Positions 24,432 to 29,874 of a DNA stretch of 56,960 nucleotides are shown here, piece by piece. Position 1 is the stretch's first letter, and each line of letters begins with the position of its first letter. Origin of the DNA: Actinomycetes bacterium (lineage in GTDB: Bacteria; Actinomycetota; Acidimicrobiia; Acidimicrobiales; RAAP-2); assembly GCA_021803085.1 (NCBI GenBank), contig JAJZMD010000201.1:1-56960 (forward strand), read 5' to 3'. The notes under the pieces were generated by a model. The model made no database searches. It had not been told where the DNA came from and saw only the letters and a list, made by a program, of their open reading frames with translations. The translations under genes and the position numbers were made by a program.

Positions 24432-25087
24432 GACCCACCGTCTTGAGCCCAGAGGTCTGGGTTCCCCGCCGGAAGCGGTGGCAGCACCGGCCGGCCCGTT
24501 GTGGTCCGCAGGCCCGACGCTCTCTCCCACGTCCCCGAGCGACCACCGGACTTCTGCCACAGGGCGAGTGTCGTGAGCACCGCGTCCGGGTCGTGGTGAC
24601 GCAGAGCCATGAGCAGGGTGAGGCCGGCGAAGGCGCAGGCGGTCAGGGCCTCGACCTCGATGCCGGTCCTCGCCACCACCGAGGTCGACACCTGCACGCA
24701 GGCGGTGCCGGAGGCAGTGTCGAGCTCGATGCGGATGTCGACGTCGTCGAGGGGGAGCGGATGGCACAACGGGATGAGAGAGGGCGTCCGCTTGGCGCCC
24801 AGGATGCCGGTCGCCTTGGCGAAGGGCACGAAGTCTTCGTCTTTGGCCGCGGCCTCGAGCGCATGGGGGCTCGAACGAAGGACGCAGCGCGCCGTCGCGC
24901 GCCGCTCGGTGACGGGCTTGCCCGTGACGTCCACCATGCGGGCCCGTCCGGTCTCGTCCACGTGCGTGAAGGCACCCCGGGCCGCCCGATGTGGCTCGCG
25001 GCCCCCTGTCACATTGCCCCCTGTCACATCGCCCCCTGTCACATTGCCCCCTGTCACATTGCCCCCTGTCACATTGCCCCCCATCAT
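24428..25087 (-). CDS. moaC: MoaC-like protein with non-canonical active site and GGNVT repeats
   Basis: A 219-aa member of the MoaC family (cyclic pyranopterin monophosphate synthase, molybdopterin pathway). It has FTHVDETGRARMVDV from residue 40, LIPLCHPLPL (His109) and ARTGIEVEALTA (139-150). However, the catalytic helix that in E. coli reads IYDMCKA reads LLMALRH here, so Asp128 and Lys131 of the E. coli enzyme align with Met160 and Arg163. The N-terminus begins with about five GGNVT/GGDVT units from a 15-bp repeat, and about 30 residues follow the family domain. ATG 25087 overlaps the fdhD stop (ATGA). Whether it makes cPMP is uncertain; the residue alignment was made by eye. Confidence 0.8.
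   Translation of the reverse strand: MMGGNVTGGNVTGGNVTGGDVTGGNVTGGREPHRAARGAFTHVDETGRARMVDVTGKPVTERRATARCVLRSSPHALEAAAKDEDFVPFAKATGILGAKRTPSLIPLCHPLPLDDVDIRIELDTASGTACVQVSTSVVARTGIEVEALTACAFAGLTLLMALRHHDPDAVLTTLALWQKSGGRSGTWERASGLRTTTGRPVLPPLPAGNPDLWAQDGGS
25006..25080 (-). repeat. 15-bp tandem repeat, 5 copies, in frame
   Basis: Units of ctgtcacattgcccc start at 25006, 25021, 25036, 25051 and 25066 on the plus strand; the second has a T-to-C change. They encode the repeated Gly-Gly-Asn/Asp-Val-Thr N-terminus of the MoaC-like protein. Confidence 0.95.
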
Positions 25088-29391: not shown

Positions 29392-29874
29392 CTACGCCTG
29401 GCTCGCGATGGGCCCCGCGTCCGCGTACCCCTGACGCACGCCCTGCCCCGCACGGCGCGAGAGCTGCTCGGGCTCGTAGAGCATCCAGTAGGCGTTCCTC
29501 GCGTGCTTGCGCGACCGCTCCTCGAACACCGCGACGAGGTCGGCGGGGTCCTCCTCTTCGTCCTCGTGGACGAAGACCTCCAGGATCGGGGTGCTCGTCA
29601 TGAGCTGCGCCAGCATGATCCCCGTCGACGCCTCGTGGGCGCACGCCTTGTCGATCGGCGCCTTGCCGGGCATCCCGAGGGCCACCACGATCCGACAGCC
29701 CTCGATCTCGATCAACTGCTTCGCCGCGACCGCGAGGTCCTTGAACCCGGGTACCGTCCGGCGCACGATCTCGAACCGCTCGCCGTACCCGGGGCACTCC
29801 CGAAGCTCGCCGACGGCCTCCGCGCCCATGTCGAAGCGGGCGAACATCGTGTCCACGATCCCGATCTTGTCCAC
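29392..29874 (-). CDS. ribC: Archaeal-type riboflavin synthase
   Basis: A 160-aa protein matching the archaeal riboflavin synthase RibC (lumazine-synthase-related), which dismutates two 6,7-dimethyl-8-ribityllumazine molecules to riboflavin. Diagnostic segments are IGIVDTMFARFDMG, RRTVPGFKDLAVAAKQL, CRIVVALGMPGKAPIDKACA, HEASTGIMLAQLM and ILEVFVHEDEEEDP, in the same order and length as the archaeal enzyme (about 155 aa). It is not related to the usual bacterial trimeric RibE/RibC. GTG 29874 starts the protein. It stands alone between a membrane protein gene and mptB, with no other riboflavin gene nearby. Base composition matches its neighbours, so any transfer is old or ameliorated. Confidence 0.9.
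   Translation of the reverse strand: MDKIGIVDTMFARFDMGAEAVGELRECPGYGERFEIVRRTVPGFKDLAVAAKQLIEIEGCRIVVALGMPGKAPIDKACAHEASTGIMLAQLMTSTPILEVFVHEDEEEDPADLVAVFEERSRKHARNAYWMLYEPEQLSRRAGQGVRQGYADAGPIASQA

Follow-up and report, generated by a model that had tools for sequence, protein, structure and literature searches.

The ribC locus and its surroundings

The window, which is the whole stretch of DNA analysed here, is a single 57-kb contig of a metagenome-assembled genome (MAG; 4.25 Mb in 296 contigs, 93.35% complete, 3.58% contamination) from the order Acidimicrobiales of the Actinomycetota, an actinobacterial host as the sequence-only reading had proposed. On its minus strand lies a gene for a protein with four conserved motifs:

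29392..29874, minus strand: ribC, encoding a 160-aa riboflavin synthase of archaeal type (lumazine synthase family) from a GTG start; match to TIGR01506
29824..29865, minus strand: N-terminal motif IGIVDTMFARFDMG, in which 23 aligned RibC all share D, T, F, A and the second M
29734..29763, minus strand: motif RRTVPGFKDL, with VPG and KDL invariant in the 23 aligned RibC
29626..29685, minus strand: motif VALGMPGKAPIDKACAHEAS, in which the 23 aligned RibC all share A, G, M, G, D, CAH and A
29557..29580, minus strand: motif EVFVHEDE, in which the 23 aligned RibC all share EVFVH and the last E

The frame is open from its GTG start (29874-29872) to the stop codon (29394-29392) and contains all four motifs from which the archaeal RibC family had initially been recognised. 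The alignment of 23 RibC sequences, M. jannaschii and a Streptomyces copy among them, had 43 invariant columns. Profile searches bore out the family assignment, as the protein matched the NCBIfam equivalog TIGR01506 (ribC_arch) over the complete model (1-151 of 151) with 190.7 bits and an E-value of 1.3e-56 against a cut-off of 100.55 bits. Its membership of the lumazine synthase family was confirmed with the Pfam model PF00885 (54.9 bits against a cut-off of 26.7). The best solved structure found by phmmer was that of M. jannaschii (2b98, E-value 1.8e-53, residues 3-156 of 160 aligned), to which the window RibC is about 58% identical in alignment. Given these three scores, the match to archaeal RibC is beyond chance. 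The protein remained below the cut-off of the lumazine synthase model TIGR00114 (23.5 against 84.6 bits) and gave no match to PF00677 (Lum_binding, bacterial RibE) at E-values up to 1. Judged by its identity to the solved homologue, the product would be a pentamer with riboflavin synthase activity. Codon comparison of the window ribC with 23 named relatives (L037-L059) gave dN/dS values of about 0.10-0.32 in the 19 of 23 comparisons that yielded a value, and the gene is under purifying selection. The enzyme itself is ordinary and well recognised; what is unusual is where it occurs.

The ribC gene stands alone, with one flanking frame convergent and the other divergent. The five neighbouring frames that were scanned comprised an acyl-CoA synthetase, FdhD, an F420 oxidoreductase and two weaker or unmatched frames, of which one scored 149.5 bits with a surface-glycopolymer model, just short of the 150 bits required, and the other had no match; no riboflavin gene and no roseoflavin-type gene (rosB/ribX) was present among the five. 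The description of ribC as solitary therefore holds for these frames, and ribD, ribBA and ribH were located together on another contig (C152). No riboflavin gene was recognised by eye in the 14 most recurrent flanking clusters across 89 ribC loci, several of these clusters being antisense shadow frames. Elsewhere in the window, a 15-bp tandem repeat (25001-25081, 5.4 copies, 96% matches) encodes repeated NVTGG-like units within a MoaC-domain frame, next to fdhD, and an Rfam Transposase-2 RNA (RF03015, 46416-46482, 63.4 bits) suggests a mobile element nearby. None of 50,697 phage records matched RibC, nine pattern matches in viral contigs included no relative, and one of 72,556 plasmid records gave a match, that of Streptomyces camelliae.

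The F420-type LLM oxidoreductase gene (TIGR03841, 305.7 bits, cut-off 213.65) extends from 34070 to about 35044 on the same minus strand as ribC, 4.2 kb upstream. Of the 89 compared loci, 35 have a luciferase-like PF00296 gene no more than 4.5 kb upstream of RibC, a count that excludes the TIGR03841 gene of the window itself, which is only partly inside 4.5 kb, and that takes its PF00296 assignment from one scanned representative of the recurrent gene. F420-type oxidoreductase genes are common in Actinobacteria, and both kinds of riboflavin synthase regenerate a precursor on which F420 synthesis also draws. The proposed link to F420 chemistry was not sustained, the TIGR03841 neighbour and the PF00296 gene in 35 loci being its sole hint. 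Apart from RibC there is nothing non-canonical about the flavin route, the ribD, ribBA and ribH of the host being ordinary bacterial genes.

Distribution of RibC and RibE

Whether RibC replaces or supplements the bacterial enzyme had been left undecided by the sequence-only reading, which proposed a genome search for a bacterial-type ribE. No PF00677 match was found in the host genome by a search that was positive for 11 of 14 controls. Besides RibC the genome encodes one true lumazine synthase, RibH (C152:7232-7633, 158.2 bits). As the MAG is fragmented, one absent gene says little and it is the family-wide pattern that bears weight. RibC is conserved across the family of the host (f1), where it scored over the cut-off in 147 of 172 genomes and RibE in 1 of 172. 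The remaining 25 were below the RibC cut-off and 21 of them lacked any match, including 6 of the 101 high-quality genomes; the other 95 high-quality genomes matched RibC at an E-value of 0.001.

A sample of the class (n=198) contained 14 genomes with RibC over the cut-off (12 from f1 and one each from f5 and f13) and 155 with RibE. There was no RibE match in 13 of these 14, the other (G106) having one weak match below the cut-off, and all 14 encoded a second PF00885 protein of RibH type. In the order sample (n=198), RibC and RibE were mutually exclusive: 30 genomes encoded RibC over the cut-off, 126 RibE, none both and 42 neither (Fisher p 5.6e-16, related genomes being counted as independent). 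The 30 RibC genomes, every one of which encodes RibBA, belong to the families f1, f5, f13, f113, f131, f135, f137, f140, f150 and f151. Family f13 is mixed, with RibC in G173 and RibE in G803, G830 and G853. Across the phylum, 9 of 396 sampled Actinomycetota carried RibC over the cut-off, each of them a member of the Acidimicrobiales.

A few genomes departed from this pattern. The host-family genome G264 carries both enzymes, its RibE, the single one over the cut-off in the 172 family genomes, being the N-terminal part of a 451-aa frame (L120 8712-10067, G264:C65) on an 18.8-kb contig, in which PF00677 is fused to a DHBP synthase domain (PF00926). This DHBP synthase part is 45% identical to the RibBA of the host, as against 71-79% for the other f1 operons, and the gene may be either that of a contaminant contig or a genuine second gene and hence an exception. 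Genome G102 (97% complete) encodes RibH and RibBA and neither RibC nor RibE. Two Acidimicrobiales genomes, G002 and G157 (4.8 and 5.0 Mb, each in one contig and 99% complete), had no match to PF00677, TIGR01506 or PF00885, and these organisms may be riboflavin auxotrophs or may use other enzymes.

The rib operon of the RibC clade

The genes on the minus strand of the host contig C152 are arranged in the order fmt, rpe, ribD, ribBA, ribH and hisG, with the start of ribBA on the last base of ribD. We examined the ribBA region of 36 RibC-clade genomes: all 30 with RibC from the order sample, a further five from the class sample, and G102, in which both synthases are missing. With two RibE queries (tblastn, E-values up to 1e-5), no ribE was detected in any of the 36 ribBA regions. 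In 35 of them ribD adjoins ribBA, and in the last (L124) the contig starts too late to show ribD. The RibE control loci had the order ribD-ribE-ribBA-ribH in 24 of 24; as these were chosen for the presence of RibE and partly for RibBA similarity, the new information they hold is gene position alone. Their exceptions were in spacing, with 1.8 kb from ribD to ribE in L206 and 0.6 kb from ribE to ribBA in L208. As ribE is gone from an otherwise retained operon, the solitary ribC elsewhere in the genome appears to have taken over its role. The absence of ribE from both the genome and the operon supports replacement over supplementation, and there is good evidence that full replacement of ribE is fixed across a bacterial clade.

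Neither the window nor the host operon locus (L028) contained an FMN riboswitch at the gathering score. The riboswitch was found in none of the 23 loci scanned among the 36 of the RibC clade and in 3 of the 22 scanned among the 24 control loci (L137, L138 and L204), numbers too few to carry meaning.

Origin of RibC and comparison with known systems

A tree of 45 RibC proteins (43 from Acidimicrobiales, one from Streptomyces and that of M. jannaschii as root) recovered f131, f113, f5, f135 and, weakly, f151 each as one group, with f135 nested in f137. The f1 rows stood together among rows known by record title alone, the base of the tree was unresolved, and the branches of M. jannaschii and Streptomyces were long. 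The best RibBA tree of 60 operons, on which G102 was counted as having the RibC state, required three changes between RibC and RibE, as RibE rows of f119, f141 and f142 fell among the RibC rows. A single RibC clade was nevertheless not rejected (p-AU 0.18), so that one ancestral swap or a few swaps both fit.

The 116 Acidimicrobiales copies of RibC are 55-100% identical to one another and 50-59% identical to that of M. jannaschii, the one archaeal sequence compared, which indicates deep divergence. The S. camelliae plasmid RibC is 58-68% identical to these copies and 50% to M. jannaschii, which hints, with one archaeon in the comparison, that the Streptomyces and Acidimicrobiales enzymes may have a nearer common source. 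Among the best 80 of 566 relatives in named genomes, 76 were by title some form of Actinobacteria and four Acidobacteria or Acidobacteriota, with identities to the window RibC of up to 97%. With one archaeal sequence compared, the origin and direction of transfer rest on distribution. The occurrence of RibC in one order of the sampled phylum fits transfer, and transfer from an archaeon into the Acidimicrobiales is plausible.

We consider it highly probable (about 0.88) that RibC is the only riboflavin synthase of the host, an archaeal-type enzyme having entered the Acidimicrobiales before ribE was lost. The normal bacterial RibD, RibBA and RibH would make 6,7-dimethyl-8-ribityllumazine, and a pentamer of RibC, itself related to RibH, would dismutate two of these molecules to riboflavin and 5-amino-6-ribitylaminouracil, the step that the unrelated trimeric RibE performs in most bacteria. 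The Acidimicrobiales may have acquired RibC once or a few times, most likely from an archaeal donor, and ribE would then have dropped out from between ribD and ribBA. The ribC gene would be expected to be essential to its host and archaeal in ancestry. Its age in bacteria could be greater: RibC may be old there and shared with archaea by descent or through transfer out of bacteria, a view of the origin that is compatible with replacement and to which we give a low probability. The single archaeal sequence compared and the deep divergence of the copies leave room for it, but the restriction to 9 of 396 Actinomycetota in one order speaks against it, as do the ribE families that surround the RibC clade on the RibBA tree and the three branches inside that clade.

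The function could be read differently. RibC might be an accessory second riboflavin synthase beside a normal RibE, as RibE2 is in roseoflavin-producing Streptomyces, where a 2024 paper describes it as an additional synthase that closely resembles the archaeal ones (PMC11039241); the S. camelliae plasmid RibC, 63.5% identical to that of the window, does adjoin ribX and rosB, and G264 has both kinds of enzyme. This is nevertheless very unlikely here, with no RibE over the cut-off in the host or in 171 of the 172 family genomes, an operon without ribE and five neighbours without a roseoflavin-type gene. The shared Pfam family and the description of the archaeal enzyme as a lumazine synthase paralogue (PMC7369331) would allow RibC to be a divergent second lumazine synthase and not a riboflavin synthase. 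That possibility, of similarly slight probability, was rejected on the scores with TIGR00114 and TIGR01506; the host moreover has a real RibH, and it would have to keep the upstream pathway yet possess no known riboflavin synthase. An archaeal contaminant or a chimeric contig, conceivable for a fragmented MAG, has next to no likelihood and was ruled out by the conservation of RibC across the family, and the best 80 of the 566 named relatives are all bacterial by title. A further conjecture, which we regard as improbable, extends replacement by RibC in two directions at once: the final two reactions of the riboflavin pathway would be carried out by RibH and RibC as sister paralogues of one fold, which might co-assemble, as mixed pentamers or with RibC on a RibH shell, in place of the known RibE inside RibH, and Streptomyces RibE2 might stem directly from the same source as these bacterial enzymes and have no separate archaeal origin.

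Replacement by RibC would amount to a clean natural swap of a vitamin-making step for an unrelated archaeal-type enzyme across a bacterial clade, the old gene having gone from its operon. The organisms concerned are mostly uncultured actinobacteria, in which the final step of vitamin B2 synthesis is affected and the rest of the pathway is normally bacterial. A missing ribE alone is therefore poor ground for calling such genomes riboflavin auxotrophs, and inhibitors of RibE would not be expected to affect these bacteria. The roseoflavin enzyme RibE2 also gains a wider bacterial context.

The structure of archaeal riboflavin synthase is reportedly the subject of Ramsperger 2006, and Jankowitsch 2012 and Kissling 2020 are cited within the literature used here. 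The archaeal enzyme has been described as a pentameric paralogue of lumazine synthase (PMC7369331, PMC10366380), completely different in sequence from the bacterial RibE (PMC10366380). Roseoflavin-producing Streptomyces possess the archaeal-like RibE2 in addition to the normal enzyme, and horizontal transfer has been proposed for that of S. davaonensis (PMC11039241). As RibE2 has been reported, an archaeal-type RibC in an actinobacterium is already known as such and is not new. In searches of mostly open-access papers we found no account of a large Acidimicrobiales clade that has RibC as its only riboflavin synthase; the literature consulted further included PMC12855090 and PMC12051542, and the main text of PMC10117117 has nothing on archaeal riboflavin synthase.

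The window RibC resembles the archaeal RibC (TIGR01506; M. jannaschii 2b98/2b99) in its full-length match over the family cut-off, in all its motifs and in its level of identity, and differs in its bacterial host and in its bacterial-type partners RibD, RibBA and RibH. With RibH (PF00885, TIGR00114) it shares the Pfam family as a paralogue, but it falls below the TIGR00114 cut-off and the host has a separate RibH. It would catalyse the same reaction as RibE (PF00677), from which it is completely different in sequence and which had no match in the host genome. A region of the S. camelliae plasmid (L150 12324-18496) encodes ribA, a gamma-glutamyltransferase, ribC, ribX and rosB, and looks like a roseoflavin rosB cluster on a linear plasmid. 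The RibE2 of such clusters is likewise an archaeal-type synthase in an actinobacterium, but it is an additional enzyme placed in an antibiotic cluster by ribX and rosB, whereas the window RibC, with neither rosB nor ribX among its five neighbours and no RibE in its genome, is the only synthase found, stands solitary, and belongs to an enzyme that most of the family carries.
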